DNA of 64,000 nt, taken from the NCBI RefSeq assembly GCF_963576675.1, contig NC_088916.1, positions 51,833,001-51,897,000 on the forward strand, given 5' to 3'. A program made the position numbers and the translations under genes. This DNA comes from Euphorbia lathyris. Lineage: Eukaryota; Streptophyta; Magnoliopsida; Malpighiales; Euphorbiaceae. Positions within the stretch are counted from its first letter, which is position 1, and every line of letters starts with the position of its first letter. Below the pieces are notes generated by a model. It worked only from the letters and a program-made list of their open reading frames with translations. It ran no database searches and had not been told where the DNA came from. Below are positions 1,537-63,207 of the stretch, in pieces.

Positions 1537-3165
1537 ATGGGGGTCTGGGTATTAGGAAAGCAAAGGACAATAATAAAGTTTTATTAATGAAACTCCTTTG
1601 GCGTATGTGGCAAAACCCCTCCTCTCTTTGGGTTCGCCTCCTTTGTGGTAAGTATCGGAAAGACAAAATCTTCGGGGGCCCGAAAGAGAGAGTTGCTAAT
1701 TGTTCCTTCCTCTGGAAAGGACTTAGTGCTGTGTTTGATGAGTTCTGCTTGGGAGTTGGCCTGGAGGTGGGAATGGTAAGTCCATTAGTTTCTGGTTTGA
1801 TAACTGGATTGGGGATAAACCGTTAATTGAGGTGTGTTCTTCCCCCCCGCCTAGTGATATACGCAACTGGAGGATTGCCGATATGGTTGACTCGGAAGGG
1901 GACTGGATCTGGTCAAAGTTTGATACTTTATTTAGCCTTGAGACTCTCCTTAGAATGCGGGGAGTGAAGGTGAGTAATCAAGAGGAAGACTTGGATAGGC
2001 ACTGTTGGGCGCTGACTAACAATGGAGTTTATTCTTGCAAATCGGCCTTTGAAGCTTTCTCTCTCTTTAGATCTGATCCTCCCTCGGATGTGTGGAAGTC
2101 GATTTGGACCCTTAAAGTTCCTTTCCGTATTAGGAGTTTCCTGTGGCTGGGCGTTAAGGACAGGCTTCTTACTAATTCGGATAGGCACAGAAGGCACTTG
2201 GCTGATTCTGGAGCTTGCAGTAGATGCAGAGGCCATGTTGAGACTTTGTGCCATGCTCTTAGAGATTGCTCTAATAGTAAAGAGGTTTGGAGGAAAATTC
2301 TCCCACACCATATTTTCTCTTCCTTCATGGCACATTCTGAGGTCGACTGGTTCTCTGATGGTGTTAGAGGAAAGTTGCTTCCATACATGGAGCATGGTGA
2401 CATTTTCTTTGCTATTATCTGTCACCAAGTTTGGAAATGGAGAAACGAGGAGATTTTTGGAGATAAAACTGTTTTTATGACAAACTTAGCTGATTTCTTC
2501 TCGAAAAAACTTTTCTCTATTATCGATAGTTTCAAAGGAGAGTCCCTTGCCAGAGCCTCTCAGTGTTGTGATGTCCATCTCGTGGGATGAAGCAGGCCAA
2601 GAGAGGGGGTTGTGAAGCTGAATACTGATGGTTCCTGCCTCAGTAACGGTAAGATTGCGGCTGGAGGTGTGCTTAGAGATGTAGGCGGCGTCTGGCTTTC
2701 TGGGTTCTCCCAGAATTTAGGGTTGGGTTCTTCCTTTTCTGCGGAGCTCTGGGCTATTCTTACTGGAATCAATCTTGCTAAAAGGCTGGGTGTTAAGAGG
2801 CTCTCTGTGGAGTCTGATAATTTGGAAGCAATCAAAATGATTTCTGAGAATCATTCTATGGGTCTTAACAGTCGCAACCTCATCAAAGCTATTATAAGGC
2901 TTTGCTCCTTCTTTGAGTTCGTAGAGTTCAGACACATTTTTAGAGAGCAGAATCGTGTTGCTGATCGCTTGGCGGCGGCGGGCCATGAAGGGACGTTAGG
3001 CGTTACTACCCTTCCTGTTTCCCCTAGTTTCATCTCTCATCTTCTCTTAAAAGATAGGATTGAGGTTAGCTTCCCTAGGCTAATTCCTGAGTAGTTTGTT
3101 GTTATTCGTTTTTCTTTTCCTTTTCTACCAAAAAAAATAAAAAAATAAAACAAACATTAAAAAAA
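1537..3165 (+). mobile_element. 5'-truncated plant L1-like LINE, 3' end of ORF2
   Basis: The copy begins inside ORF2 with a conserved GGLGIRKAKDNNK-type block after the reverse transcriptase, runs through the zf-RVT and RNase H domains, and ends in an A-rich tail from about 3129. Loss of the 5' portion with an A-rich 3' end is the normal outcome of incomplete target-primed reverse transcription. Between 1537 and 1826 the frame reads well until about 1765, where a frameshift moves the conserved Trp/Asn-rich block into the frame that opens at 1832. Confidence 0.85.
1832..3094 (+). pseudogene. LINE ORF2 C-terminus: zf-RVT plus RNase H domain
   Basis: One reading frame covers 1832-3094, broken by a single TGA at 2588-2590. 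The first part (to about residue 250) is the zinc-binding region typical of plant LINE ORF2 (zf-RVT), with a CSRCRGHVETLCHAL block carrying C-x2-C and H ligands. The second part is a type-I-like RNase H domain with the acidic residues in NTDGS, SAELWA, ESDN and NRVADRLA. In a live element this enzyme removes RNA template during reverse transcription. The stop and the upstream frameshift make this copy inactive. Codon quality after the stop is good, so the damage looks recent relative to the other LINEs here. Confidence 0.85.
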
Positions 3166-3497
3166 TGGAATCCTCTATTTCTCTTATTCTTTTCTGAAAT
3201 AATCAAAATAGACTCTTGTTCTAATTTTTAAAACAATATAAACAATTGATTCTTATTTTTAATATTAAAATATATATTATTTGCAATAATATTCCTTATA
3301 TTTATTATTTTTAAATAGAAAAAATGATAGTTGAGGCTAAATAATATATAACAATTGATCTTTATATTATTGATCATGGAAACAAAAAAGGTTGTGTTTT
3401 CTGCTTTTAGAGATCTTTTATGACTAAAGTATTGGCTGGAAAAAGATAGCTAATGGAGAAATGCTATTTCTTTTTTTTTTTTCTTCCTCTTTTATCA
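3166..3497. other. AT-rich spacer
   Basis: About 330 bases of AT-rich sequence with homopolymer runs. Nothing recognisable. Confidence 0.4.
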
Positions 3498-3506
3498 ATT
3501 TAGAAA

Positions 3507-3872
3507 TGGCATTATACCCATTTGGTCCTCAAACCAAAGCTTCAAAGTTAATTAAGATCTTAAACTATTAAAATCATCAATTAGGTCCCTGAATTAAAGA
3601 AAAATCATCAATTGAGTCATTGTCATATCCTAAAATCAGAAACGATGACTATTTGATATCAAAACTGTAATAATCTCTGTGTTGGTTCAAAATTGATTTA
3701 GGAAAGAGAGACTAAAATTGTTCAACCGAATAATTTTCGATGACCTCAATTGAAGATTTTTGTTTAGAATGAAGACTCAATTAATAATTTTTTGTTAGTT
3801 AGACCTTATTGATGATTTTGATAGTTTAAGATTTTAAACTCTTAATTTAGGGATCCAAATAGATATTATGCC
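3507..3872. mobile_element. Mutator-type MITE, 366 bp, perfect 9-bp duplication
   Basis: ATTTAGAAA occurs directly before (3498-3506) and after (3873-3881) the element, a perfect 9-bp target duplication as made by Mutator-like transposases. The terminal inverted repeats start TGGCATTATACCCATTTGG on the left, and the right end reads as the complement of GGCATAATATCTATTTGG. No coding capacity. Confidence 0.75.
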
Positions 3873-4008
3873 ATTTAGAAATTATACAAAGATAATCTAA
3901 ATAAACCACAATATTTATCGTGGAGTGCGATAATCATTATAATGATCTCAGATATCCTATAATTCTGCAAGTCAAGTTTGATGAATTTAATACGGGAAGT
4001 TTTTTTTA

Positions 4009-22117: not shown

Positions 22118-23617
22118 TTAGATCCTAAACAATCCTTGGGATCTAACATGTTTAACATAAACATCTCTCTTGACTGGTTTGGTGAGGGGATCTGCCACCA
22201 TGTCATGAGTAGATATATACTTCACATTAACTTCTTTGCGTGCAATTAAGTCCCTGAAAAAATGATACTTAATCTCTATGTGCTTTGATTTGCTGTGGAA
22301 CCTTTGGTCCTTAGTGAAAGCTATAGCAGATTGACTGTCACTGTTAACTATGACTTGGGTTTGACAATTGGTTACATTTAAGTTGTTTAGGAACCGATTC
22401 AGCCAAACAGCCTCTTGAACTGCTGATGAATACGATACGTATTCAGATTCCATGGTGGACAGGGCTACACAAGTTTGTTTCTTGCTACTCTAGGAAATCA
22501 CGCCATTTCCTAGCAAGAACACATAGCCTGACGTGGACTTTCTTTCGTCCAAGTCTCCTGTCCAATCAACATCCGTGTATCCTCTCAGATTTAGGTCTTT
22601 ACCTTGATAGCATAGAGAATAATCTGCTGTTCCTTTGAGGTACCTCAGTATCCTCTTCATAGCTGCCCAATATGCTAGTCCTGGGTTGGACTGATATCTA
22701 CTCACCATCCCAATGGCATGACAGATATCAGGTCTTGTACACAACATGGCGTACATTAGACTACCTACGACACTTGCATATGGAACTTTTTCCATCCTTT
22801 TCTTTTCGTTTGGATTCTTTGGACACATTTTGGTACTTAGGGTGATGTCCTTAGTCATCGGGCTATCTACAGGCCTACTTCCACGCATACCGAAACGATC
22901 AATGACTTTGTTAACATAAGTCTCTTGAGACAGTGCTAATAGTTTCTTTGATCGATCCCTTGAAATCTTAACCCCAAGTATGTATGCGGCTTCGCCCATA
23001 TCATTCATTTCAAAACTTGAGTTTAGCCAAGCTTTGATTTGGTTTACAAATTCTATGTCATTTCCTGCTATCAGTATGTCATCTACATACAGAGATAAAA
23101 TGACAAAATTTCTACCCGACCGTTTCGTGTAGACACAATGGTCCTCTTCAAGCATCTTGAAGCCATTCAAAATCATTTGATTGTGAAAACGAAGGTACCA
23201 TTTCCTAGAGGACTGTTTAAGGCCATAAATTGACTTTTTCAATTTGCAGACCTTATGCTCAGAGCCTTTTACCACGAAGCCCTCTGGCTGTGACATATAG
23301 ATCTCTTCGCTCAATTCTCCATTGAGAAAAGCAGTCTTAACATCCATCTGATGTAGCTCTAGGTCTAAACTTGCTACAATAGCTAACATTAGTCTAATAG
23401 ATGTAAACCTTACAACAAGTGAGAATGTCTCCTCGAAGTCTATTCCTTCCTGTTGTGTATAGCCTTTAGCGACAAGGCGAGCTTTGTACCTTTCGATACT
23501 ATTATCAGCCCTTCGCTTCACTTTGAGAACCCATATGCTCCCAACAGCTTTTCTACCCTTTGGCAGATCAACCAGTTCCCAAACATGGTTGGATCTCATA
23601 GAATCTAGTTCCTCTTA
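22118..23617 (-). pseudogene. copia-1 reverse transcriptase and RNase H
   Basis: After a TAA (23615-23617) the frame runs 23614-22490 and resumes to 22118. RT begins near [11 protein letters not shown] and holds the [19 protein letters not shown] block, DVKTAFLNG, the SIYGLKQ block and the catalytic YVDDILIA. RNase H holds [26 protein letters not shown] and the VADPLTKP end. The in-frame TAG at 22490-22492 replaces the conserved Trp of the SW-SKKQ motif. Apart from the stops, the sequence is well conserved. The lineage within plant copia is not assigned. Confidence 0.9.
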
Positions 23618-25441
23618 CATTGCTATAGTCCATTTGTCTTTTTCCGGAGAAGTGAAAGCTTCTTTAGCATTTCTAGGTTCCGCGTCATCATTTAGAGTTA
23701 CTAAAAGAGTTGTGCCTTCAATACCAAATCGTCGACTATCAACTCTTTGCCTTTTAGTACGGCGCGGTTCCGAGTTTTGATAAACTTCTCTCATGTATTC
23801 ATCATAACCTGGAATCCTATCTCTTAGACTTTGTCCCAAATTCTCACAAGAATCAGGAATCAAACTCCCACTTAAATAAGGATCTGTCACATTCGAAACG
23901 TTTTGAGGTTCAGAACTTTGACCTTGTTCTTGTTCCTGGTAGTGATCGGTATCATTACCTTGATCCTCAAAATTCCTCCCACTCGAATGGAGAGGTCCGT
24001 TTGAATCTATTTCCTCAAACAGAGTGAGATCTGTTTCAAATTCTCCTAGCTTAGGAAACTCATTCTCTAAGAAGACGACGTCTCGTGATTCAAATTCTGT
24101 CACTCGGCCTTCACTATTTTCTCCCACTAGGACATATCCCTTTGATACATCAGGGTATCTTATAAAGACACACTTTCTACCTCTTGGGCCTAATTTCCCA
24201 AATTTGCTAGAGGTATCATAGGCAAAAACAGTACAACCCCAAGGTCTGAGCATACTCAAATCGGGTTTTCTACCAGTACACAACTCATAAGGAGTGGAAG
24301 TGACAGTCTTGGAGGCCACTCGGTTTAGAACATATGTAGCTGTTAGCAAAGCATCTCCCCAATAGGAAATAGGCAAGTTTGCTTCAGCCATCATAGATCG
24401 AACCATATCAAGGAGAGTTCTATTTCTCCTCTCGGCAACACCATTTTGCTGCGGAGTGTATGGGATAGACAACTGATGCTATATCCCTTTCTCATCACAT
24501 AAAGCTTTGAATTCATCTAAAATATATTCTCGACCTCGGTCAGTTCTCAAAACTTTGATCTTCTTATCTAGTTGATTTTCAATAAGGTTCATAAACTTTC
24601 TGAAACAACTCAAAGCTTCAGACTTGTGAGACATCAAGTAGATGTGACCATATATACCTTTTATCGTCATCTATGAAGGTGATGAAGTAGTAGGCCCCAT
24701 GCCTAGCCCTCACATTCATTTCACCACAGACATCAGAATGAATTAATTGCAAAGGAAATTCTACCCTAGTACCCTTCCCGAATGGGTTTCTATGCATTTT
24801 TCCTTTAAGACATGGTTCGCATGGAGGTAATTCAACTTTTCTTAAACTGCATAGTAAGCCCTCTTTGGCTAAACGATTCATGCGATCTTGGCCAATGAGA
24901 TTTAACCTAGCATGCCATAAACTAACATCTTTATCCACAGAAGAAGTAGTAACAGAAAAATTATTGGAGTAATATAATTCAACATCCAAAATAGTCAAAC
25001 CATTCAGTACATATCCTGAACCATAGAATTCATTATCCAAACTTAAATGCAAACTGTCATTAGCAAAAAAAAAAAGGCAAATCCAATTCTTAACAAAGAG
25101 TTCACAGAAATAAGGTTTCTCCGAATATTCGGAGCATAGAGAACATCTTGTAGGAGGAGAGTTTGACCGCCACGTAGACTCAATCTACATGTTCCAATCC
25201 CTTCGACTGCAACTCTCGAGTTGTCTCCCATATAGATCCATCTTGAACCGATTGGAATTCGTCGGAACTCGACAAAGGTCTCTCTTTCCTTCATCACATG
25301 GTCCGTTGCACCTGAATCAACAACCCACAAAGGATCATGTTCAGCTATGAGAACAGTGCTACATACATTTATTTCACTCACACATGAGTTAGTGTAGTGT
25401 ACCTTAGGAAATTTGCAATCATTTGCATAGTGTCCTTTTTC
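23618..25441 (-). pseudogene. copia-1 protease and integrase
   Basis: From the element 5' side: zinc-knuckle tail (GHYANDC), aspartic protease (WVVDSGATDHVM, active Asp in DSG), the gag-pre-integrase zinc segment (LWHARLNLIG, then CEPCLKGK), the integrase core (IHSDVCGEM, TDRGREY, PQQNGVAERRNRT) and the integrase C-terminus. Lesions are a frameshift in an A/T homopolymer at about 25060-25075, a frameshift at about 24650 in a TATATA run and a TAG at 24479-24481. The protease, integrase and RT were evidently one frame with gag. Confidence 0.9.
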
Positions 25442-26248
25442 TTAGCAGTTGAAACATTTCACACGTGAAAGCTTCAGTTTCTTTCTGTTCTTTGTTCTCT
25501 TTCCCTTTCTATTTTCTGTATTCACAGGCTCTTTGGCTTGCTCTTTGCCCTGGCCATAGAAGCGCTTACGCTTTTGCCTTGGAGGATTGGAACGCCTCCC
25601 AATTGAGTGGGCTCCCACATAATAGGCTTCAGCATTGATCTTAATCGATGCCAGGCGATCCTCCTCTAGCTCAAGGTGGTGACAAACAGCATCGAAGGTT
25701 TGAATTGCTTCGGTGTGGGTTAGGTGCACCTTCATGTGCTCCCAACTGTTTGGCAAAGAGCGGATAACAGCTTGCACTTTCTGCTCATTGGTCAACTGAT
25801 GACCTGCTTCATTCAGCTCACTGATCATGTTGGACATTTCTCTTAAATGCTTTTTCATTGTATGATCAGGCCTCTTCTTGTAAGTGTCAAACTTAATTGT
25901 CAATGAGCGGAGCCTAGTCAGAGACACACCTCCGAATTTCTCCTTCAAAGCATCCCATATGCCCTTGGCTGACTCAATCTTACAGAATTGCCTAGTGAAC
26001 TCATCATCCATGGCACTCAGCATGATGATGCGGGCAGTGGAATCCTTTTTCTTCCATGCCGTATAATCTCGGCGAAGCTGAGCAGTTGCACCATCCTCAG
26101 GTTCGGCCATAACCGTATCCAAGTGAGAAAGCACATCTTACTCTTCAAGCACATACTTTATTTTTATTGACCAAACCTCATAGTTATCCCTATTTAATTT
26201 CAGATCTTTGTTGAGTTCAGCAACTATAGACTTTCTAGCTGCTGCCAT
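25442..26248 (-). pseudogene. copia-1 gag
   Basis: Starts at ATG 26248-26246 (MAAARKS). The gag domain includes NYEVWSIKIKYVLEE, then WKKKDSTARIIMLSAMDDE and the EKFGG block, then the LRSLTIKFDTYK helix region. A basic segment and a CCHC zinc knuckle (CFNC...GHYANDC) follow. TAA at 26138-26140 splits the N-terminus, and TAA at 25442-25444 lies inside the zinc knuckle between its second Cys and the His. Gag forms the particle that packages the element RNA. Confidence 0.9.
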
Positions 26249-35659: not shown

Positions 35660-35964
35660 AGTTTGTAAGAACATGTGTAACAGTCTGGCTCATTATCATA
35701 TACATATTATCAGAGGTCTGAGCAAGTAGCAGTCTTAAGGGATGGTGATGAGGATATGGATGAACTGAATTCCATATGCAGACGCGTTTTAAAACCGTAC
35801 GACCCAAGGTTTTGTATTTGGTCAAATCGAACAATATCTGCATGTTATTGGGCCAGGATATTACAGTTGGTATTGGATCCAACTCTCCATGTATGATGTG
35901 TGGTTCAGGGACGAACCAGGCGGAAGATGGTGGGCCTATAATGACCCGGTCTGGAGTGAGTGGC
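35660..35964 (+). mobile_element. Small LTR element (TRIM-like), left part
   Basis: An LTR-like block (GATGAGGATATGGATGAACT, then CAGACGCGTTTTAAAACCG, then CAATATCTGC, ending near ATTACAG at 35868) is followed by TTGGTATTGGATCC, a degenerate initiator-tRNA primer site. The internal sequence continues to 35964, where the CACTA element is inserted, and resumes at 40456. No coding sequence; size and structure suggest a TRIM. Confidence 0.5.
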
Positions 35965-36265
35965 CACTATGCCATTTTCCCTTTCACATGATACAAGATA
36001 CATGACAGACATTTGTTTTCATGTAGTGTGAATATTTTTCGTGATAGTATTTTAACTGTATGTCATCTGAAAGCGAAATAAAAAATGCGCTCGATTCTCA
36101 GATGACATTACGATTACATAATCCCGTCATCCAAAGAAAACGCGCGTTTTCGTTAAATTTCACTTACTCAACAGATGACATACAGTTAAAGCGGCAAATG
36201 AAATTTCACTTACGCGGCCAATCCCCAAATTTTAGGCGCTCTTGTTTAACTGGAATTTCAGCTGA

Positions 36266-36400
36266 TATATAAACCCTCTCTCTAATCCCAAACCACAGTT
36301 TAGGTTACGCAAGAGCTTCATCCCTCTCATCCCTCTCTATCTCCATGGCTGATTTGAACATGCAATCACTGGTTGAGCTATAAACACGGTACTGGTAAGT
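36266..36400 (+). promoter_or_regulatory. Promoter-like unit, short ATG frame and splice donor in the CACTA element
   Basis: TATATAAA (36266-36273) is followed by a pyrimidine-rich leader and ATG at 36345 in good context (CTCCATGGCT). The frame reads MADLNMQSLVEL then TAA (36381-36383), and GTAAGT lies at 36395. A possible matching acceptor TTTTGCAG ends at 39722, followed by 24 open codons to a stop at 39794-39796. This looks like the 5' end of a transcription unit, either the element's own gene with its middle lost or a second captured fragment. The stop before the donor means the frame is broken or the upstream ATG is not the real start. Confidence 0.4.
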
Positions 36401-38285
36401 ATCTATTGATTTTCATTGTTCCTTACTCTCTCTTTTCCTCATCCGATTTACTTTTGTGTATGTCAATTTTAGCAGCTGGAATAAGGATCTATTGATTTTC
36501 AGAGCTATGATTTAAAGGGTTAGATCTCTCGCTTAGATACTGATTTTATTGTATTCATTGTTAGATTCACCGCTGAAATTCTTGGGTCATTATCTTTTTT
36601 AACCTAGGGCAATACAATGCCGGTTGCTGAAGATGTTCTGATTTCTTTTTATTTGAACATAATATTTGCAAGGATAGTAAGAATGCTACATGCGAAGGCT
36701 GACTGAAGAGATTGTCATTCAGTTCTTGCGTTTAGCATATGGGAAGTTTTCTTTAACTTATTGAGTATATATTGTTGTTATGTTGGTTTGAACTGATTGG
36801 TTGCATGTATGATGTTGTTGTGGGTGGTGCTGCTGAGATAGGTTTGCAATATATCTTCCACTTGGATTGTTATCTGAATGAGTATGTGTATGTATATGAA
36901 CATAGAACTCATTGATTTAGGAAACTAGCCTGATTTTGAGTATACATATATATATTGTTATGTGGGTTTGAACTGAACGATTACATATATGTATGATGTT
37001 GTGGGTGATGATGAAATGATTGGTATGAACTGATTGGTTAGATATAACTGATTAGGCATACTCTAAAGCTTTGAATGTTCATTGTGATTGGCAATACTCT
37101 TACACCTATAACTTATACTGATAGAAGTGATTGAGTATGTGTATGTGTATGAAACATGTTTATGTTTGATGTTCTGTTGATGTTTATGTTTGAGGTTCTG
37201 TATGAGTATATGTACGATCGTTGATTTGGGCATGTAGCTTATTAATCATGCATCAAGTATTAGAGGAACATTGTAAAAGGGTCATTGAGCATGTATGAAG
37301 CATGTATTAAAGGGTAAATTTAGGCTAATTGCATGTACTGATATGGCTTGCAAATGATTAGATATATATCACCATTCTGTTTTTTATTTGAACATGACCT
37401 ATGATGATAAGTAAGGAATAAGTTGTATGCTTGTTATAGCATGTTCACTTGAATATACATGTCTGCTTGAATAAGTTGTCTACTTGTTATAGCATGTTAG
37501 GCATACTCCTAAATCTCCATTACTATGTATCATGTCACTTGGCTTGTTATGCTTATGGAAAAGTGTTTAACATGGTGATGAAGTTGTATGATTCTAACAA
37601 CACAAGTTTATGACTAAGCTTGTGGTGACAGTATCATACACTTCATCACCATGCTAACTTCATCATGAACTGTACAATCCAAGTGGCAGGTACATAGTGG
37701 TGGCTTTATGATGCTATAAGAACAAGTTTTAGACATGCACGAATAAGTTGTGTATTTGTTATAACATGTTAGGCATACTCTTAAAGATGAAAATGTTATG
37801 AAACCATTCAGGATGGTGATGAGATAAGTTTACAATATACCTTTCACTTGGCTTGTTATATGATTGAAACCATTCAGGATGTTGATGGGTTTTCGATGCT
37901 GTCAGCATATGAACTTGATATTATGTTTAGGAAGGTAGCTGATCATGCATACTCTTAAAGCTGAAAATGATGAACTTGCCTGATTCTTTTCTATTTTAAC
38001 ATGAGTTATGCTGATGAGACATATGTTTCATGTCAATTTAGCATGTTATGTGTCTATGTATGAAGCATGTTGGCTTTTTTTATGTTCTGTTTATGAAGTA
38101 ACTGATTCAGGAATAGACATATGTTTCATATCAATTTAGCATGTTATGTGTTAGGAAGTAGAACTGATTCAATTTAATAGACATAAACAAATAAGTTGAC
38201 TACTTTGTTATAGCATGTTATGATCCACTTGAATATACATATATATGTCTACTTGAATAAGTTGTCTACTTTGTATTGCCTATCA
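36401..38285. repeat. Intron-like region with a degenerate recurring motif
   Basis: No coding. Motifs such as AATAAGTTGTCTACTTGTTA, TAGCATGTTAGGCATACTC, GAACTGATTGGTT and ATGAGTATGTGTATG recur with changes (about 36790, 37025, 37430, 37475, 37745, 38195, 38260), so this part of the CACTA element has grown by scrambled local duplication. Confidence 0.5.
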
Positions 38286-38290
38286 AAAAA

Positions 38291-38860
38291 GGATAGCGTG
38301 CAAGGGGGGCATTATGATATGACGTGCGAATAATGTACAAGGGGGGGCATGATGCGCGATTAGAAAGGAGATTTTGATGCTAAAGAAATACTGGAGCTGG
38401 ATGGATGGAGTGGAGTACTAGAGGGGCATGGAGCCAACATTGAAGATCAGATTGATTACCAAGTACATTTGTAATCAATAATCATTCTGTTCTTCAAGAA
38501 TGGCTCTATGCCCATCCAGTAGTCCACACCATCCAGCTCAGTGTTTCTTTGGCATCCAAATCTCCTTTCTTCAAGAATGTGCAGATGGTAAACAAGGATA
38601 TCGGGATGATGGGGAACCATTAGAGTTAAATGGCGTCGAATACTGGAGGGACATGGAGCCAACATTGAAGATCAGATTGATTACCAAGTACATTTGTAAT
38701 CAGTAATCATTCTGTTCTTCAAGATTGGCTCTATGCCCATCCAGTAGTCCACACCATCTAACTCAATGGTTGCCCAACATTCAAATTTCCTTGCTATTCA
38801 CACATCACACCCTCATTGTACGCTATTCGCACGTCACATCATAATGCCCCCCTTGCTTGC
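38291..38860. repeat. Complex foldback next to the E2 copy
   Basis: Outer arms 38298-38380 and 38776-38858 are inverted copies (shared GCAAGGGGGGCATTATGAT and GACGTGCGAATA). Inside are two hairpins. The first pairs 38360-38462 with 38470-38575; the second pairs 38612-38697 with 38699-38790. The hairpins are also tandem copies of each other (38427-38533 against 38652-38759, offset 225). RNA from either strand would fold into long duplexes. The duplicated unit reads, on the minus strand, as an ELDGVDYWMGIEP-type peptide, hinting that it was once coding. It begins immediately after the E2 stop codon, so in an E2 transcript it would be 3' UTR. Confidence 0.8.
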
Positions 38861-38870
38861 TATTTGCACA

Positions 38871-39546
38871 TCATATATCCACTGCACGCTTTTCAGTCCA
38901 TCTCCTGGCAGTTGCTACGTAACCTGCCCTGTTGCTGATGTATCGTTCAGCAATTCGCTCTCGGTCAGGAAATGGCCCCTCAATGAAGGGCTCTACCAGT
39001 AGTCCATAAATATTCCACAGCAGCTATAAAATGCATAGATAAATTAAATTAGACCCCAAACATGAGTAGATAAACTAGACCCCAAACATGAATAGATAAA
39101 TTTACGGGTAAAAAATACATAGATTTACATCTTACCGTGGCAATACTATGGGCGGGGCGATCAAGTAGCTGGGGCATAGAAACATGCCCCAAGGGACCGA
39201 TATTAGGATGATAAATTTTGGTCCTAAATATGATCTGCGAACAATAGTAATATCATGAGTGTATTTACAAAGATATGAACTGATTTATGTGTGTTAACAA
39301 GTTTGTGCATGTTCTTACAACTGGAGGTGTGGAGGGGAAATCGACAGGGAAGTCCATTTGGACTATGAATACACCTCCTTCATAAGGGGTGTTTGGAGGG
39401 CCATTCATCACGGCAGTCCGTTGCCGCTAGTCAGGACCATGTATATTGACAAGCCACCTAGGTGCCTCATATCGGAGTTGGTCAATCTGAAACTCAACAT
39501 TACGATAGAGGTTCCTTACAAGTCTATCCATGCTCGAAATAACAAA
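38871..39546 (-). pseudogene. Captured ubiquitin-conjugating enzyme (E2) gene, three exons
   Basis: Three minus-strand exons join without a frame change. Exon 1 is 39546-39319, exon 2 is 39234-39136 and exon 3 is 39023-38871. The introns (84 and 112 nt) start GTAAGA and end CGCAG or TATAG. The product reads as a UBC fold: N-terminal helix from Met 39531, MNGPPNTPYEGGVF (the beta-sheet G-P-x-x-T-P-Y-x-G-G motif), FPVDFPSTPP, FRTKIYHPNIG with the HPN motif, and a C-terminal helix ending RRWTEKRA. From that ATG it is 153 sense codons plus an internal TAG, close to the usual ~150 of an E2 core. Eight residues after HPN the catalytic Cys is Ser (GHVSMP). The TAG lies in exon 1 (39427-39429). A TATA box lies 72 bases upstream of the ATG. 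E2 enzymes pass ubiquitin from E1 to substrates; this copy should not be able to. Confidence 0.82.
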
Positions 39547-39602
39547 CTGTAAGTATAGTGTTAGGTTGCCCTGGGTGACTATTGAGAATTGGTAAACGCT
39601 TC

Positions 39603-39611
39603 CTATTTATA
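39603..39611 (-). promoter_or_regulatory. TATA box upstream of the E2 copy
   Basis: TATAAATAG on the minus strand, 72 bases before the candidate ATG (39531-39529). The spacing is right for a plant core promoter, suggesting the E2 copy was captured with its promoter. A TACAG just before 39546 could instead be a splice acceptor from an upstream non-coding exon. Confidence 0.5.
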
Positions 39612-39796
39612 ATGTGGGTGGGTAAGTGAAGGGTCTCAGAATGAAGAAAGGGTAAAAGGAGATTAATTAGGTTTATCTGTATACAGTATGTAATTAATGA
39701 GCATCATCAATTGGTTTTGCAGATATCAAGACTTTGGGGATTCTAGGAGATGATGACTTAGATATGCTTCAGTTCAAGTTGGATTTGGCTTTCTAA

Positions 39797-40454
39797 TCAA
39801 CACCACCACGCCTCTGACTATATATACAGATTTGGAAATGTACATTAATTGCTTTTTTTTACCCTACATTCATTCAGTTATTTGTGTAGTTCAAATGTAA
39901 ACAGATTATGAGCATTAGTCTCCAGTAAAATTAAAATCATTGATATACATAAATTCTTATTCATTTGATAATTATTGTTCATTTCCAGAATCATTCGAAG
40001 AAGAAGGTAATGAGTGACATTTACGTTTAAAAAAATATCATCTAAACAACAATAAAAAAGACATTAAATTAAAAGAATCTGTCATCTAAAATAAATCTCT
40101 TGACATGATTGATTAAGACCTATGCCATCTGATACAAGTTATTACGACAGAAATTATTATAAAAACTATCACCGCGAATGCCAATATGCCAATTTCCCAT
40201 ATAGCGACTTGACATTTTTAATTATTAGTATGTCACATGATGACATTAAAAGTGACGTTAATAAATAAAAAGATGCATCGTAACAATGTTCATATGACAG
40301 TACAAAACTAGGCTGATGTCATGTATAGTATCTTCAAATGACAGAACCTAACCGTCGTCTAAAGGTGCAATAGATGGCAGCGAGCCTTATGAAAGATTTA
40401 TATCTCGCGGGACGATGGTTTTTAACCATCGTCTGAAGGGGGTTTTGGCATAAT
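39797..40454. other. CACTA right subterminal region
   Basis: Non-coding, with the GTCATCT/AGATGAC-type subterminal motifs expected to bind transposase, ending in the inverted GACGATGGTT/AACCATCGTC block. Confidence 0.6.
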
Positions 40455-40455
40455 G

Positions 40456-40655
40456 GGCACCGCGGTAGAAGGCCTGAGGAAGGAGCGATCCTAAGGGTTG
40501 GCCATGAGGGCAGGAATGGAGAGGGACTGACTAGGGCTTATTAGTAAGGTGAGAATCCACATGCAGATACATTTTAAACCCGTGCGGTCCAAGGTGTTGG
40601 ATTTGGGCCAAAGCGGATAATATCTGCATAATATTAGATCAGGATGTTACATTAG
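40456..40655 (+). mobile_element. TRIM-like element, right part and second LTR
   Basis: Continues the internal region cut at 35964 (GGCACCGCGGTAGAAGGCC). A second LTR-like block follows, CATGCAGATACATTTTAAACC, then GGATAATATCTGC, ending GATGTTAC (about 40655). It matches 35775-35868. Confidence 0.45.
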
Positions 40656-40659
40656 ATTT

Positions 40660-40800
40660 CATGGTTTTAAAACGCGTCTGCATGTATTGAATATGCATCT
40701 TACTAATAAGACTTAGTCACCCTTTTCATTTTTGATGTGGAATTCAGTTCATTCATGTCCTCATCATCATCTCTTAAGGCGACTTTTTACTCAAGCCTTC
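40660..40800 (-). repeat. Inverted copy of the TRIM-like LTR
   Basis: Read on the minus strand it contains GATGATGATGAGGACATGAA, GAACTGAATTCC, CTTATTAGTAAGATG and CAGACGCGTTTTAAAACC, matching the LTR blocks at 35730-35800 and 40540-40585 in opposite orientation. Confidence 0.6.
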
Positions 40801-47819: not shown

Positions 47820-48581
47820 ATGGTGAACAGAATCGATGAATCCAGCCCTTATTTCATCCATTCTAGTGAAAATCCATCCCTTGTTCTTGTTACTCCACCA
47901 TTATCTGGAACTAACGATTATCATTCATGGAGTCAGAACATGAAGATGGCCTTATTATCCAAAAACAAATTGGATTTTGTTGACGGCACGATTGAAGCCC
48001 CGGCAAGCAATTCGACACAATTTGTCACTTGGAAGAGATGCATCAATCTTGTTCTCTCCTGGATAGTGAGGTCATTATCGGCATCAATAGCTTAAAGTGT
48101 GTTGTGGATGGGAGATGCAAGAAGAGTCTGGGTCAATCTGAAGGAAAGATTCGCGATGTCCGATGTTTTCCGCTTAGCGGCGCTCCAAGGAGAAATCTAC
48201 ACCTTAAAGCAAGGTAATAAGTCTGTTTCAGATTATTTCACTCGATTGCAGATGTTCTGGGATGAATATATCTCCACTAGAGACATTCCAGAGTGCATTT
48301 GTGAAGGTTGTGTGTGCAATGCATTGGCTATAATCAGAAAGAACAGGGATGCAGATCAAGTGGTTTGCTTCCTAAAAGGGCTAAATGATGCTTTCACCAC
48401 AGTTAGGTCTCAAATAATGGTTACCGATCCCATTCCAAACATCAACAAGGTTTTCTCCTTGATAGTTCAACATGAATGCCAAAGTCAAGCCTCAGATGCT
48501 GTTAATATCGGTCAAGATTTACTGGAACTTGTTTAGAATCCTAAGAATCAGACTCATGATCTTCAAGAACTCATAGCCTTA
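47820..48581 (+). pseudogene. copia-2 gag
   Basis: Starts MVNRIDESSPYFIHSSENPS, a plant copia gag N-terminus (Retrotran_gag_3-like), followed by TNDYHSWSQNMKMALLSKNK. TAA at 48093-48095 and TAG at 48534-48536 interrupt the single frame. Between them lies the central gag domain (RVWVNLKERFAMSD, LQGEIYTLKQGNKSV, FLKGLNDAFTTVRSQI). The zinc knuckle lies just downstream, in the next feature. Gag would assemble the particle. Confidence 0.9.
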
Positions 48582-50306
48582 GTGCAAAACACAAGGGGCA
48601 ACAGGAAATTCGGATTGAATGGTCAGAAATGCACTCATTGTGGTTTCAAGAATCACACTGTGGATAGTTGCTACAAGAAACATGGATATCCACCGGGTTA
48701 TAAATTCAAGAACAAGGTTAATAGGGCAAATTTTATGAGTACAGAGGATCAATCCGAGAACAATTCAAGTGGAATCTTGGGAGCAGCTCCAACTAGCGTC
48801 AATCCAGCAATGAGTCAACTCTCAAACGATCAAATTCAGCAGCTACTGAAGCTTTTTCCATCATCCAGTAATACTTCGCATATTAACTGTGCCACTGCGT
48901 CCATCTGTCCTGTGACCAATGTCACTGAAGGTATGTCGAATATATCTCTACTTGCCAAAACCCGAAAAATCTCTTGGATAGTTGATACAGGGGCAAGTTG
49001 CCACATATCAAGTATAAAAGAGATGTTTTCAGACTTAAGACCAGTGAATAATTGGAAAGTCCTCTTGCCTAATAAAACTGAAATATATGCATCTCACATA
49101 GGAACTATTAGTTTCACAGAGGACTTCATTTTGCATGACACACTCTTAGTTCCCAATTTCGCCTATAATCTTATTTCAGTTTCCATGCTAACAAATACCT
49201 TGAATTGTGAAGTTAAATTCACTAATAATGACTATTTTATACAGTATACACAGACGAAGAGGATGATTGGTTTAGCTAAGTCCAGTGATGGACTTTATCA
49301 ATTGCACAGACCTTGCTTGAATGATGATCTTTCTTTTAATAAGCATGTTGTCAACAATGTGGATGTTATGAACCATGGTTCTATTAGCCGGTCTTTTGAT
49401 GTTTTCTTGAATAATACTGATAATCATAGTGGATACAATAATGTTTTGATGTGGCATGATCGCCTTGGACATATAGCACAGTCTAGTTTTAGGCATATGA
49501 ACAAGCATATTGGCAATTTGAATGTTGGCGACATTGTATGTGATATATGTCATTTGGCCAGGCAAAAGAAGCCTGCTTTTCCCATTAGTAAGTCTAAAAC
49601 TAGTGATTGTTTTGATATTGTTCACATGGATATATGGGGTCCTACTCATATTGGCATTAATGGAAATAAGTATTGTCTCACTGTTGTTGATGATTATTCT
49701 AGGTATACATGGATTTTCTTTGTTCAAGTTAAGTCTGTTATATCCATATTGGTTCAACGTTTTGTTTCCATGATCGAAACTCAGTTGAATAAGACCATTA
49801 GGATCATTAGAACCGATAATGGCCTCGAATTCAAGTTAGATAACTTTTATGCTGACAAAGGGATTATGCACCAAACCTGTTGCGTTGAGACTCCTCAACA
49901 GAATGGCCTTGTAGAGAGAAAACATCAGCACATTCTGAATGTTGCTAGGGCCTTACAGTTTCAGAGTAAATTGCCTGTCACTTATTGGACTTATTTCATA
50001 TCTCACGCAGTTTTTCTAATCAATAGGCTACCTTCTAAAGTCATTGACTTTGTTTCGCCCTATGAACTGCTCAATGGTAAAGTTCTTGACTATAATGATC
50101 TAAGATCATTTGGATGTCTCTGTTTTTCTTCCACTATACATAGAGACAAAAAGAAGTTCGATGCTAGGGCTGAGAAGTGCATATTCCTAGGATATCATTC
50201 TGGAACCAAAGGCTATAGGGTGCTCAATTTAGATACTTACAGAGTTTGTCATAAGAAATGTTATCTTTTACGAAAACATCTTTCCATATCAAGAACCGGT
50301 CAGTAG
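48582..50306 (+). pseudogene. copia-2 zinc knuckle, protease and integrase
   Basis: 574 open codons in frame with gag. A CTHCGFKNHTVDSCYKKHG knuckle is near the start. The protease motif WIVDTGASCHIS is at about 48975. The gag-pre-integrase segment MWHDRLGHIAQ with CDICHLARQ is at about 49450-49565. The integrase core carries HMDIWGPTHIG, RTDNGLEFKLD and QQNGLVERKHQ, i.e. the D, D and E residues. A frameshift at about 50255 (VCHKKCYL instead of a continuing integrase C-terminus) ends this frame. Confidence 0.92.
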
Positions 50307-50352
50307 AGATAATGACAATAATGTTGTTTCCATCTCTCAAGAAACTCTTAAC

Positions 50353-50787
50353 ATGGATACTGAGATTGATACTTTTAACAGAGAAATTGAGGTCCCCTCC
50401 ACCAGTGTCTCGCCTAACCGTAGCGTTAGGAGGTCGAATAGAACGACTAAGCAACCCGAATATCTAAGGGACTATCACTGTGCCATTGCTCAGGGTCTTT
50501 CTACCACTCTCATTGAGAGTACCACTTACCACCCTCTGTCTAAAGTTATTTCGTATAATAAACTATCTCAACCTCAAAAGAATTACTCCCTGGCACTTAT
50601 GATAAATCAGGAACCCAAAACCTACAAGCAAGCTGTTGTCCATCCTGAATGGCAACAGGCTATGGAAGAAGAGCTAAATGCATTAAATAATAACAAAACT
50701 TGGGAGATATGTTCTAAACCTGAGGCAAAGAGGATGTGGATTGTAAATGGACTTTTAGGATCAAAAGGAAAAGTGATGGGACTATAG
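50353..50787 (+). pseudogene. copia-2 integrase-RT linker
   Basis: In a shifted frame: an acidic/Ser-rich linker (PSTSVSPNRSVRRSNRTT), then PEYLRDYHCA and the start of the RT-linked domain (EPKTYKQAV, WQQAMEEELNALNNNKTWEI). A second frameshift near 50735 returns to the original frame before RT. Confidence 0.85.
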
Positions 50788-52142
50788 ATAGGTATAAGGC
50801 TAGATTGGTTGCCAAGGGTTTTACCCAACAAGAGGGGGTTGATTTCCTTGATACTTTCTCACCTATTGCTAAGTTGACTATTGTAAGAGTTCTTGTTACT
50901 TGTGCTGCTATCAAAGGATGGCACTTAGAACAGCTTGATGTCAATAATGCGTTTTTACACGGGGATCTCGAGGAGGAAATTTACATGAAATTACCTCCTA
51001 GTATTTCTACTGATGTCCCTAATCCTAGTTGTAGACTGACTAAATCGTTATATGGGCTTAAACAAGCTAGTAGGCAATGGAACATAAAACTTGATAATGC
51101 TCTACGATCTATAAGTTTCACTAAGTCCTTGGCAGATCCTTCGCTTTTTATCAGAAAGAAAAACAATAGTTTCATTGCTATTACCATTTATGTAGATGAT
51201 CTGATTCTCGCCAGTGACAATCATGATGAAATAAGGGATGTTAAATCTTTCCTAGATAGAGAATTCACTATTAAGGACCTAGGAAAACTGAAATACATCC
51301 TAGGAATTGAGGTTTCCAGGACTTCTAATGGAATACACTTATGCCAAAGGAAGTACGTTCTTGACATGCTAGCCGACTTTGGTTTTTTAGAATGCAAGTC
51401 GTGCTCCACGCCTATGTGGATGACAAAAATAGATTATTCCAATTCGCCCTTACTAGAGGATGTTACTCTGTACAGAAGACTTGTAGGCAAGCTTCTCTAT
51501 CTCACTAACACTAGGCCCGACCTTAGTTATGCTATGCAACAACTTTCACAGAATCTGGATAAGCCTACTAAGCTGCATCTTGTCGCTGCACATAGGGTAC
51601 TTAGGTATTTAAAAGGTAATCCTGCCCAAGGCATTATGCTTTATGCCGATTCTGATATTCACATAAAAGCTTATACTGATTCTGACTGGGCCAACTGCAC
51701 GAAAACCAGGAAATCTGTTACTGGTTTTTGCACATTCATAGGAAAGTCTCTCATATCCTAGAAGTCCAAAAAGCAACAAACCATTAGTAAATCCTCTTCG
51801 GAAGCCGAGTATAGAGCAATGTCCCTTACTTGCGGCGAGGTTCAATGGCTCCAATACTTATTAAAAGACTTGCAAATGCTAGAATTACATCCTCCCACGT
51901 TATACTGTGATAACATATCCGCTATCCATATTGCCAAAAACAGTGTGTTTCATGAAAGAATGAAACACATTGAATTAGACTGTCACTATGTTAGACAGCA
52001 GGTGCAAGCTGGAAAGATTCACTTGCTCCCGGTTAGATCCAATGAACAATTAGCCGATTTCTTTACCAAACCACTTCACACACCTGCTTTCCACTTCCAG
52101 TTGCAGAGATTAGGGGTTATTAATGTTCATCTTCCAACTTGA
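50736..52142 (+). pseudogene. copia-2 reverse transcriptase and RNase H
   Basis: RT blocks: [49 protein letters not shown] and catalytic YVDDLILAS (about 51190). A TAG at 51759-51761 replaces the Trp of the SW-SKKQ motif. RNase H resumes at 51819 but the frame is continuous apart from that stop: SSSEAEYRAMS, LYCDNISAIHIAKN, KHIELDCHYVR, EQLADFFTKPL, ending TGA at 52140-52142. The polypurine tract follows. Well conserved otherwise. Confidence 0.92.
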
Positions 52143-58317: not shown

Positions 58318-58437
58318 GGGTCTACTTTCCTAGGGATTTGGTTGTGTATGACTTGTTTTGGATTCCTAGGTTAAGACCACATAATCATATTTTCTTATGC
58401 TAAAGCATGTTGACATGGTCATGTTTCATGTAGGGTT

Positions 58438-61400
58438 ATGGAGTCTGATGGTGAGAATGGACAATCCGGTAATGTGTCTAGTCATGGTTCAGTTGGTCGT
58501 GTTCATGAGTCTGGGGGCTCAGAACATATAGGAGCTTCAGAACATGCAGGGTATCCTCAGGGTTACAACCAGTTTGAACAGATGATGGGAATCTATTTGG
58601 CTCAAGGTCAGCCTCAGCCACGTGTTCAAGCTCGTCGAGATGCGCCAATCTTTGATAAAATTTTTGAAAGGCTTAAAAAGATGGGTGCAACAGAGTTTGA
58701 GGGTAGCACAGATCCTGATATAGCTGATAAATGGTGGGCCAAGATTGAAGATGTACTTGAGAACACAGAGTGTCGTCTGGACTCAATGGTCAAATATGTT
58801 TCTAATCTTTTCACTGGTGAAGCTTTAGAATGGTGGAGATCTATAAAAAGGACAAGAATTAGAACTGAAATAACATGGGATATTTTCAAGAAGTTGTTCA
58901 CTAATAAGTACATGTCAAAGATATACAAAGATAGGAAACAAACAGAGTTTTTGACCCTTATGCAGGAGGATATGTCTGTGGCTGAATACGAGCTTAAGTT
59001 TAACACTTTAGCCAAATATGCACCTGCAAATGTGGCTACAGAAGAAGCAAAATGTCGCAGGTTTGAACATGGTCTACACCCAGATGTTAGAATGGGGATT
59101 CATGCACATGAAACGAGCTTTAGATTGTTAGTAGAATCTGCACTCAGAGCGGAGGAAATTGTGAAAGATAAAGAACAACTTTTTGTAACTAAAAGGGCTA
59201 GATTTGATACAGAAGGCCAGTCTAGCAGGCCATCAAAGAGAGGTGGATTCTCAGTTTCTTCTAGAGGCTATTCTCAACAATTTAGAGGTAGTAGTAGTAT
59301 CCATCGTGGTGGGACTAGATCACGGGGCGGATTTGGAGATGTTTTGAGTAGTGCTCCATCTGTGGGTAGTAACAGATTTTCAGGTGGTCGGTTTAATAGT
59401 GGGTATAGAGGAGGAGCGAGAACAACATCTTTTCCAGCTTGTCAGACATGTGGACGGGTACACAGAGGTGAGTGTTGGGGACCTTCCCTGGTTTGTGGCA
59501 GATGTGGCCGATCTCACACAGGAGAGTGTTATGGTTCATTTAAGAAGGGTACATGTTTTGAGTGTGGAGAAACAGGCCATTATCGTAATAATTGTCCCTT
59601 GTTAGTTGATAGAGGAGAGAGAGTTCAACCTCAGTCTAATATAGGAGGTGGTACAGCTGGAGTGGATAGAGGCAGAGGCAGAGGTCGAGGAGGAGGTAGA
59701 TGGGGTAGACATGATGCTCCTATGGGCGGACAGACACAAACTTTACCACGAAATAGAGCCTTCAATATGACGAGAGGTGAAGCTCAAACAGCACCAGAGG
59801 TTATATCCGGTACAATTTCTATCCTTGATACCTTAGCTTTTGTTTTGATTGACCCTGGATCCACTCATTCATACATAACACCTGAGTTTATATTGAAAAT
59901 AAATGGGAAGGTAGAACCATTAGGATATGATGTGGGAGTTATCCTGCCAGTTGGGAATAATGTGATTGTAAATCAGGTTCTGAGAGATTGTCCTATAAAA
60001 GTGAGGGGAAGTGAGTTCCCTATAGATTTAGTAGTTATGGGGTTTAGAGAATTTGATATTATTTTGGGGATGGATTGGTTGTGTAAATATGAAGCTAAAG
60101 TGGATTGTTGTTCAAAGGAAGTTGTGTTACATTGTAATTCAGAATCAACTGTGTTATTTGTTGGGGAGAGAAAGGTTGTGCCATCTTGTTTAATATCTGC
60201 AATTCAAGCAATTAGATGGATTAGAAATGGGTGTGAGGCATATTTAGCTCATGTTGTGGACACTAGGGAGGATGGAGGCAAATTGGAGAATATTCCAGTG
60301 GTGAGAGATTTTGCAGATGTATTCGTAGATGAACTACCAGGATTACCACCTCATAGGGAGATTGATTTTCCTATTGAGACCATGCCAGGAGTATCTCCTA
60401 TATCAATTGCTCCATATAGAATGGCTCCAATAGAATTACAAGAATTGAAGAAACAAATAGAAGAACTACTTGAAAAGGGGTTTATACGACCCAGTACTTC
60501 ACCGTGGGGAGCACCTGTATTATTTGTGAAGAAGAAAGATGGAAGTATGCGATTGTGTATTGATTACAGACAATTGAACAGAATGACAGTGAAAAACAAG
60601 TATCCATTGCCTCGAATTGATGATTTGCTAGATCAGCTTAGAGGAGCTCGTCATTTTTCAACGATTGATCTACGATCGGGCTATTGGCAGTTGAGAGTTG
60701 CAGAAGCTGACATACCTAAAACTGCTTTTCGTACAAGGTATGGTCATTTTGAGTTTCTTGTGATGCCTTTTGGCTTGACTAACGCTCCTGCAGCTTTCAT
60801 GGCATTAATGAACAAGACTTTTCAGCCATATCTAGATAAGTTTGTTGTGGTATTCATTGATGATATCCTAGTGTATTCAAGAACTGTGGGTGAGCATGAA
60901 CAACATTTGAGAATTGTTTTGAAAATTTTAAGAGATAATCAGATGTATGCAAAGCTGAGCAAATGTGAATTTTGGATGGATGAAGTTGTATTCCTTGGTC
61001 ATGTGGTGTCAGGTGAAGGGGTTCAACCCGACCCTTCCAAAATTAAAGCTATTGATGAATGGGAACCGCCAAAGAACGTTACAGAGCTTAGGAGTTTTCT
61101 TGGGTTAGCTGGTTATTACAGGAGATTTGTAGAGGGTTTTTCTCTGATTGCAGGTCCATTAACTAAATTGCTGAGAAAGGGAGTTGTATTCCAGTGGAAT
61201 GATAAATGTCACCAAAGCTTTGAGGAACTAAAGAAGAGATTGACTTCCGCACCAGTGTTAGTGTTACCTTCTGAAGGTGGTGGCTTTGTTGTTTATACAG
61301 ATGCCTCGGGACAAGGTTTAGGATGTGTTCTAATGCAAAATGGGAAAGTCATTGCATATGCTTCTAGGCAACTGAGACCTCATGAGATGAATTACCCCAC

Positions 61401-63207
61401 ACACGACTTAGAGTTGGCAGCAGTCATCCATGCATTGAAGGTATGGAGACATTACCTATATGGGGAGACATTTCAGATTCTCACTGATCACAAGAGTTTG
61501 AAGTACATCTTTACACAGAAGGAGTTGAACCTAAGACAAAGGAGATGGATTGAGCTATTAAAAGATTATGATTGTACAATAGATTACCATCCAGGAAAAG
61601 CTAATGTGGTTGCAGATGCTTTGAGTAGAAAGAGTGTTGATATTGTGGCTAGTATGAAGAATTATAGTTTGAATTCACTAGTGGAGATGCGAGCCATAGA
61701 TGTGCAGTTAGAAGTAAATGAAGTAACAGGTTTGATGGCTACACTACGAGTAAAACCAGATTTGAAAGAAAGGATCCAAGAAGCACAATGGCATGATCCT
61801 TATTTACAGAAAATGCGAGATCATGTACAACAAGGTAAAAGACCTGATATTTCTGTGGAAGATGATAGAACTATGATGATAGGTAGTCGATTATGTGTTC
61901 CAGATGTAGCAAATTTAAGATCAGAAATTCTACAGGAAGCACATAATTCTCCTTATGCTATGCACCCAGGAATGACAAAGATGTACAGAAATTTGAGACC
62001 TTTTTACTGGTGGCCTACAATGAAGAAAGATGTATCTGATTTTGTTTCCAAATGTTTGACATGTCAACAGGTTAAAGCTGAGCATCAAGCTCCCGTGGGA
62101 AAACTAAAACCTTTAACCATACCAGAGTGGAAATGGGAGAGGATCACTATGGATTTTGTGATGGGATTACCAAGAACAAGGCGTAGACACGATAGTATAT
62201 GGGTGATAGTGGATAGACTTACGAAATCTGCTCACTTTCTACCGGTTCAACAGACAGACTCGATGGATAAATTGGCTAGACTTTATGTGGAACAAATAGT
62301 GAGGTTGCATGGAGTACCTATATCTATTGTTTCAGATCGTGATCCTAGATTTACATCTAGATTTTGGGGCAGTTTACAGCACTCATTGGGAACAAAATTG
62401 CATTTCAGTACAGCCTTTCATCCACAGACAGATGGACAATCGGAAAGAACTATTCAGAACTTAGAGGATATGATGAGAGCTTGTGTTCTTAATTTCCAAG
62501 GTGAGTGGGATATACATTTACCTCTTATGGAGTTTGCTTATAATAATGGTTATCATTCAAGTATAGGCATGGCACCTTATGAGGCACTATATGGAAGACC
62601 GTGTAGAAGCCCTATATGTTGGGATGTTGAAGGAATGAGACAATTGGAAGGACCTGAGTTAGTCCAGGAAACTGTTGAGAAGATCAATGTCATAAAGAAG
62701 TATTTAAAAGCTGCACAGGAACGTCAGAAAGCCTATGTGGATCAGCACCGAAGGGAGATGGAATATAAAGTTGGAGATAAAGTGTTTTTAAAAATATCCC
62801 CATGGAAAGGAATAGTTCGTTTTGGTAGAAGAGGGAAGTTGAATCCAAGATACATTGGGCCTTATGAGATCATTGAGAGAGTTGGACCATTGGCTTATAG
62901 GTTAGCTTTACCACCAGAATTGTCTTTAATACATGATGTATTTCATGTGTCAGTATTGAGAAGATATAGATCAGACCCAAGTCATATGATTCCTGAACCT
63001 GAGATTGCAATAGTGAATACAGACTTAACTATTCGTGAGCAACCTTTAGAGATTTTGGGACGAGAAATGAAACGACTCAGAAACCGTGAAATTCCAATGG
63101 TTAAGGTGAGATGGAGTCATAATCAAACACTTGATGAGGCAACTTGGGAGGTAGAAGAAAATATGAGGACACAATATCCTTACCTATTTGAAGCTTCTGG
63201 TAAGTGA
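58438..63207 (+). CDS. Gag-Pol polyprotein, Ty3/gypsy chromovirus (intact)
   Basis: 1589 residues in one frame, no stop or frameshift. Gag (about 70-250, [20 protein letters not shown]) is followed by three zinc knuckles (C335-C346, C353-C364, C373-C386). Protease: DPGSTHS with Asp472. RT: about 650-830, catalytic Asp744 and FIDD at 806-809. RNase H: Asp955, Glu992, Asp1017, Asp1060. Integrase: HHCC zinc site (H1169, H1175, C1206, C1209), catalytic Asp1239, Asp1300 and Glu1336 with 35 residues between the last two, then a GPY motif (1474-1476) and a chromodomain-like tail (about 1535-1585). All catalytic residues expected of the family are present. Start chosen at the first in-frame ATG, 120 bases after the primer site. 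Such elements copy themselves through RNA into heterochromatin. Confidence 0.97.

Follow-up and report, generated by a model that had tools for sequence, protein, structure and literature searches.

A high-copy Pack-CACTA transposon family of Euphorbia lathyris carrying a ubiquitin-conjugating (E2) gene that lacks the catalytic cysteine

Whether a gene for a ubiquitin-conjugating enzyme (E2) found inside a transposon is a tool of that transposon or its passenger is the question raised by a locus of Euphorbia lathyris lying in a window of 64,000 nucleotides (NC_088916.1, positions 51,833,001 to 51,897,000 of the forward strand; all positions below without a locus or contig name count from the first letter of this window). 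An earlier note on the same DNA had described a non-autonomous CACTA element with a captured three-exon E2 gene, its introns and an apparent promoter, and had offered three roles for the gene: an evolving regulator, a source of small RNAs against the parental E2, or plain debris.

The element is complete in the window, where it occupies 4,491 bp (35965-40455, plus strand) with the E2 gene on its minus strand. It is bounded by 10-bp terminal inverted repeats (TIRs) starting with CACTA, CACTATGCCA on the left (35965-35974, plus strand) and CATTATGCCA on the right (40446-40455, minus strand), and by a 3-bp target site duplication (TSD) reading GGC on the left (35962-35964) and GGC on the right (40456-40458), both being marks of CACTA (En/Spm) elements. 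The same end bases recur in two-ended copies elsewhere, and the homology between the window element and other copies ends at the TIRs (full-length alignments of ~93-95%); in 26 of the 33 copies in which the right end was found, the right TIR reads CACTACGCCA on the minus strand, the window copy having CATTATGCCA. Candidate subterminal repeats are present too, in the form of a perfect 19-bp inverted repeat (36051/36172) and of some GATGACA-like motifs, few in number, at either end. A six-frame read-through of the whole element against Pfam at E <= 0.01 gave no transposase domain and UQ_con as the sole family, so that host coding DNA lies within an element lacking a transposase, a trait of Pack-CACTA elements. 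The TIRs, the TSD, the two-ended copies and the missing transposase domain together bear out the description as a non-autonomous CACTA element. A second CACTA-end-like string at position 11530 has no further homology to the element and was dismissed as chance.

The sequences flanking the element (35730-35964 and 40456-40800) have in common a 96-bp piece (78% identity) and an inverted 44-bp piece (89%), suggesting that the CACTA element inserted in or between older repeats. Elsewhere in the window, polyprotein open reading frames resembling those of LTR retrotransposons were recognized by eye from the list of reading frames, two of Copia type (22118-26137 and 48096-52142) and one of Gypsy type (58414-63207).

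Searched at the DNA level with the E2 stretch, the genome yielded 728 first-look places. The best 40 of them were scored; these best-scoring 40, which are not a random sample, are the window copy and 39 others at 95-97% identity, and all 39 were examined with their flanks. Both ends fall within the fetched stretch in 22 of the 40 copies, which measure 4,312-4,875 bp, and 20 of these 22 have identical 3-bp TSDs (the exceptions are L032 and L043). Because four copies (L011, L012, L016 and L035) have one common flank on C6, a segmental duplication, the number of independent insertions with matching TSDs becomes 17 of 19. As a separate observation, nine copies have the same right flank, eight of them at C6:1.35-2.68 Mb (L009, L010, L011, L012, L014, L016, L035 and L038) and one on the window's own contig at C7:85.75 Mb (L020); here the element was carried along in a segmental or tandem duplication, most of it on C6. 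The thought that an E2 pseudogene merely happens to lie between CACTA-like motifs draws on the decay of the window copy and on nothing else; refuted by the copies at other loci, which have both ends, enclose the E2 and are flanked by TSDs, it keeps next to no probability.

The cargo of the window copy reads as a UBC-fold protein from three phase-0 exons with GT-AG introns (39531-38871, minus strand), the exon lengths of 213, 99 and 153 nt each being divisible by three. Exon 1 (39319-39531) has 71 codons with a Met start and an in-frame TAG at codon 35, exon 2 (39136-39234) holds the HPN motif and the active-site region, and exon 3 (38871-39023) runs through a TGA stop. The intron between exons 1 and 2 is 84 bp long (39235-39318) and that between exons 2 and 3 is 112 bp long (39024-39135), all three exons and both introns lying on the minus strand; the donor GT is present in 40 of 40 copies for both introns and the acceptor AG in 38 and 39 of 40, respectively. 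The splice borders proposed in the earlier note, 39319/39234 and 39136/39023, are exact to the base.

With an X placed at the single stop, the joined exons match Pfam UQ_con at E = 9e-24 (84.1 bits), a significant match that settles the proposed E2 identity. Tested singly, exon 1 matches at 2.5e-8 and exon 2 at 0.001, below the curated cut-off, while exon 3 alone has no Pfam match. The best solved-structure match is chain 4x57_A, 'Ubiquitin-conjugating enzyme E2 8' (E = 1.1e-23), which we take to be Arabidopsis UBC8; every one of the 60 top solved-structure matches listed is an E2, mainly of the UBE2D/UBC4 type, and none is named UEV. The TAG at codon 35 (39427-39429, minus strand) is private to the window copy, the other 39 copies having CGG (31), CAG (5), CGA (2) or CTG (1) at this codon, and many of them have stops of their own; among the 40 copies, the joined frame is shifted in L029 and L036.

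When the genome was searched with UQ_con, 1,464 candidates emerged, the best 150 of which were scored. Thirty-seven places from this list were read, and proved to be 31 relatives of the cargo and six other E2 genes (L048, L051, L060, L061, L062 and L064). The relatives form four subfamilies, A (the window type, 8 places), B (6), C (2) and D (15), with DNA identities of 85-91% for B, 76-78% for C and 70-73% for D, the last over ~175 bp around exon 3; for D, there were 691 first-look places, the best 40 of which were scored. What had been pictured as a capture confined to one locus thus belongs to a family of many copies, whose cargo falls into at least four subfamilies. Mean divergence from the consensus over the aligned E2 region is 2.9% in A and 3.4% in D, the largest A value, 21%, being an outlier row. 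Taking plant substitution rates of 0.7-1.3 x 10^-8 per site and year, this divergence would correspond, as a guess, to roughly 2-5 million years.

An active E2 has the UBC domain, the HPN motif and a catalytic cysteine; the cargo has UBC-domain homology and the motif, and lacks the cysteine. A Ser codon, TCT, stands at the catalytic position (39178-39180, minus strand), and the two codons for Trp-Ser that should follow are deleted in the window cargo. In a reference alignment of 29 sequences, made up of the NCBI protein P0001 (discussed below) and 28 E2 proteins picked from the matches, the catalytic site is Cys in 27 and Ser in 2, and the Trp is present in 28. Across the 40 best-scored A copies, the codon at the site is TCT in 38, TTT in one and TAT in one. 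An alignment of 71 cargo copies (48 A, 6 B, 2 C and 15 D) has 54 Ser, 7 His, 5 Gln, 2 Arg, 2 Tyr, 1 Phe and no Cys at this position, with the residue varying among His, Gln, Arg and Tyr within subfamily D. In lacking the cysteine, the cargo would resemble UEV (E2 variant) proteins, whose Cys-less UBC domain partners an active E2, yet the best matches listed are E2s. Judged from these residues, the transposon-borne E2 presumably lacks enzymatic E2 activity today. Neither the private stop nor the cysteine loss had been mentioned in the earlier note, whose CACTA element, captured E2 and introns stand, and whose single-locus picture does not.

A copy of the cargo has entered the public annotation. 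P0001, the NCBI E. lathyris protein 'ubiquitin-conjugating enzyme E2 11-like isoform X2', has the same two splice joins as the window E2, and its three exons translate letter for letter, with the same splice sites, from L089 (C8:20743380-20748680). This locus is a truncated copy of the element that matches element positions 1985-3973 and has neither end; what NCBI lists as the gene of P0001 is therefore a copy of the transposon, and the model is likely an over-annotation, so that the 'E2 11-like' entry for E. lathyris calls for caution. The isoform annotation may mean that transcripts exist. P0001 differs from the window exons at 8 of 113 residues, one in the first 63 and seven in the last 50 (exon 3), and its fold prediction is weak (pLDDT 65). 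A longer isoform X1 arising by read-through of exon 1 was sought among 13 candidates, none of which reached E <= 0.001. The high-scoring Trifolium protein P0013 was set aside because it repeats in tandem an ordinary E2 that has the Cys and resembles P0091 ('E2 36-like').

The origin of the cargo can be approached through subfamily D, in which a first exon is followed by a predicted intron absent from A and B. The predicted D introns agree in place and phase with L051, a genuine UBC8-like E2 gene, at three positions: G|P in phase 1 (seen in L051 from the acceptor only), PPK|V or PAR|F in phase 0, and TISK|V or TAT|C in phase 0 (seen in L051 from the donor only). This agreement points to capture of intron-containing genomic DNA from a UBC8-type gene, and it sustains the view that introns were captured along with the E2. 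Precise loss of an intron by reverse transcription in A and B is not claimed, a microhomology deletion fitting the junction equally well. The cargo is alike to UBC8-type E2s (the UBE2D/UBC4-5 group) in its best sequence match and in the predicted intron placement of D, and differs from them in lacking the catalytic cysteine, in the deletion of the following Trp-Ser, and in having 41-50% identity to two L051 exons. A blastn search of the cargo against the two genuine UBC8-like E2 genes L051 and L062 at E <= 1e-3 gave no match. Of the parental comparison that had been proposed, introns were compared with those of L051, three positions agreeing; the parental gene itself was not found. The cargo is placed as UBC8-type by its sequence and predicted intron positions.

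The backbone speaks for a single capture, D being represented by two copies and B and C being read at the E2 region only. L085 has the same right end as A (76% over 582 bp), L086 has the right end and the left interior in common with the A backbone, and in both the E2 sits in the same place and orientation as in A. In L086, ~409-bp tandem repeats have expanded from the element's left interior (L086:849-2480). Conceivably, one CACTA lineage made two or more separate captures of diverged E2s already lacking the cysteine, so that constraint between A and D would date from host genes before capture. Between the consensus cargoes of A and D, 36% of the exon sites and 44% of the aligned intron sites are different, compared with 24% at the right ends (measured on two single copies), and the D side 3' of the E2 is unlike that of A, as separate captures would predict; conversely, the shared site and orientation, homology from the promoter side through the right TIR, the existence of the intermediate cargo subfamilies B and C, and the uniform lack of the cysteine (0 of 71) make repeated capture very doubtful. 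From this combination of shared features, genomic DNA was probably captured once, ahead of the divergence into subfamilies.

Several sequences around the E2 bear on whether it could be expressed or silenced. A putative promoter element, TATAAATA (39604-39611, minus strand), precedes the E2 ATG by 80 bp and is kept in 37 of 40 A copies; the two D copies examined have it as well, at upstream distances of 61 and 68 bp, rendering the apparent promoter noted earlier plausible. Directly downstream of the E2 is a 571-bp palindromic foldback (38293-38863; -337 kcal/mol, z -29) with an internal 166-bp direct duplication, whose self-palindrome recurs in other A copies (loci L001-L028); it is possibly a small-RNA source or a nested foldback transposon. 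On the plus strand, the left end has a TATA-like stretch, a short open reading frame from ATG 36345 and a GT donor (36266-36396; 22 of 40 copies have the exact donor string), likely the first exon of the element's own transcript. An acceptor AG (39721-39722) with a likely last exon (39721-39829, its 3' limit arbitrary; acceptor string exact in 24 of 40) would complete this transcript, and the stretch is also conserved in the D copies L085 and L086. If the left-end donor and this acceptor do belong to the transposon's own transcript, the E2 would lie antisense in a long intron.

Such a transcript, or the foldback, could be the source of siRNAs that silence the transposon or a host E2. The stability of the foldback and the likely antisense transcript speak for a small-RNA source; the foldback, however, lies outside the E2 exons, and blastn does not match the cargo to either of the genuine UBC8-like genes L051 and L062. 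We regard this reading as unlikely, if worth keeping in mind, and the more specific suggestion of small RNAs against the parental E2 is weakened by the absence of a blastn match at E <= 1e-3 to L051 and L062.

Within bursts, the cargo appears to evolve neutrally. With the noncoding changes of 33 A copies as the basis (seven C6-type copies of the 40 being dropped to remove duplicates), the neutral expectation is a nonsynonymous-to-synonymous ratio (N:S) of 2.82 and a stop:S ratio of 0.19. The N:S counts observed in these 33 copies are 80:29 for singletons (with 3 stops), 22:5 for variants in pairs of copies (with 3) and 18:8 for those in three or more (with 2); the 8 stop variants compare with ~8 that 42 synonymous variants would lead one to expect. 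One stop is common to four A copies and another to six, indicating that elements with broken frames went on transposing. Wider counts gave N:S of 179:66 and 65:23 for the 48 A copies, and 44:15 and 30:7 for D, and the frame is open over the tested exons in 16 of 48 A copies and 8 of 15 D copies.

Between A and D, two results pull apart, the frame having stayed open longer than chance, yet without a codon-position signal. Both consensus frames are open over 115 codons. Neutral simulations accumulated 3.2 stops per lineage with the measured mutation spectrum and 2.2 with a flat one, and left both lineages open in 0 (measured) or 1.5% (flat) of 1500 runs, a test that is slightly too strict because the divergence of the simulated pairs (0.37-0.38) somewhat exceeds the observed 0.357. 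Conversely, the consensus exons differ at 41 of 115 sites at each of codon positions 1, 2 and 3. Omega between A and D is 0.56, compared with simulated neutral medians of 0.83 (measured spectrum) and 0.93 (flat), and values of 0.56 or lower arose in a fraction of 0.055 (measured) and 0.015 (flat) of 400 runs. For the other pairs, omega is 0.62 for A-B (six changes), 0.88 for A-C, 1.23 for B-C, 0.57 for B-D and 0.64 for C-D; we place little weight on the B and C values, because the consensus rests on six copies for B and two for C. We infer that the reading frame was under weak or episodic constraint in the time separating A from D and under none in recent bursts, and the openness of the A-D frame beyond neutrality hints at past function.

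On another reading, the Cys-less E2 is, now or formerly, a functional accessory of the transposon that would bind partners from the ubiquitin pathway, E3s for instance, and dampen silencing by the host or the turnover of proteins. The open A and D consensus frames despite 36% divergence with an omega of 0.56, splice sites kept in 38-40 of 40 copies, and TATAAATA upstream in A and in two D copies fit an accessory, and the long-conserved ULP1 cargo of MULEs described in the available part of a review offers a precedent (PMC13317346). The equal A-D divergence at the three codon positions (41/41/41 of 115), the omegas of 0.88 for A-C and 1.23 for B-C (C being two copies), the neutral N:S within bursts with stops common to several copies, and the variation of the Cys-site residue in D tell against it, and we consider an accessory role distinctly unlikely. 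A bolder proposal with a similarly small chance of being right is that the CACTA lineage domesticated a host E2 as a gene of its own. Source elements would then encode a Cys-less pseudo-E2, with frame, promoter and splice sites preserved across the deep divergence of the subfamilies because the protein blocks a ubiquitin step holding the transposon in check; were it true, the family would be a ubiquitin counterpart of the ULP1 cargo in KI-MULEs.

How the family reached its copy number may be sought in transposases acting in trans. TNP2 is common in the genome (412 first-look places, the best 150 scored), and 1 of 170 E2 places has a scored TNP2 within 15 kb, compared with 0.79 expected by chance, the 170 being drawn from the E2-stretch, UQ_con and D lists with genuine E2 genes omitted by eye and some places unread; carriage of the E2 by an autonomous element is thus unsupported. 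That single place, L088, has an inverted left end, 83% identical to the window element over 216 bp, beside a TNP2 match that reads away from that left end and holds one stop. An intact element of this kind, a TNP2-bearing CACTA with a homologous left end, would be the likely helper. In such a scheme, TNP2 transposases would act in trans on the element ends, and mobilization would multiply the E2 cargo along with the element, the E2 itself being needless for transposition.

Our preferred reading is that the window element belongs to a high-copy non-autonomous Pack-CACTA family, mobilized in trans, in which a Cys-less UBC8-type E2 with predicted introns is in all likelihood a passenger. Among the three roles originally offered, debris or a passenger fits best today, and an evolving regulator survives as a minority reading. 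The window element is of a known kind, Pack-CACTA or Tgm-Express-like, and its variant trait is the high-copy, subfamily-forming, Cys-less E2 cargo. In the titles and abstract openings of the open-licence papers listed by literature searches, no E2 cargo of a transposon is reported, an absence that is weak evidence; for example, in the available part of a Mikania study, an LTR element is inserted in a ubiquitin-conjugating gene, which is not its cargo (PMC8495827). The available text on Chenopodium CACTA elements describes gained domains and captured host sequence, also Peptidase_C48, but mentions no E2, its single use of 'ubiquitin' concerning the protease (PMC8978399).

Among the systems closest in kind is Tgm-Express1, described in the accessible part of its report as a soybean CACTA element with five captured gene fragments, comprising intronic and exonic regions of host genes with usable splice sites (PMC1947982). 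There, one element holds five fragments, whereas the E. lathyris family holds one near-complete E2 in high copy and diverged subfamilies. The Pack-CACTA and Pack-TYPE elements of Arabidopsis, rice and maize, so far as the available passages go, are alike in having TIRs, TSDs and host coding DNA and in being non-autonomous (PMC8903248, PMC13317346), but differ from the E. lathyris family, in which the cargo is near-complete, diverged by subfamily and Cys-less, with the parent locus not found. Lastly, the KAONASHI (KI) MULEs and other ULP1 transposons, among them elements of grapevine with ULP1 cargo (PMC2528002), resemble the E. lathyris family, in the portions available, in having a long-lived, high-copy, reverse-oriented cargo from a ubiquitin-like pathway (PMC13317346, PMC2528002); KI MULEs combine Mutator with a ULP1 protease (PMC13317346), whereas here a CACTA element is combined with an E2 that has lost its catalytic residue, and the element is non-autonomous. 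A single genome here offers a natural series, four subfamilies or more, of one host gene carried by a transposon, which opens the question of passenger or tool to codon models on many copies, and the parallel with the ULP1 cargo of Mutator elements raises the further question of why transposons keep ubiquitin-pathway genes.
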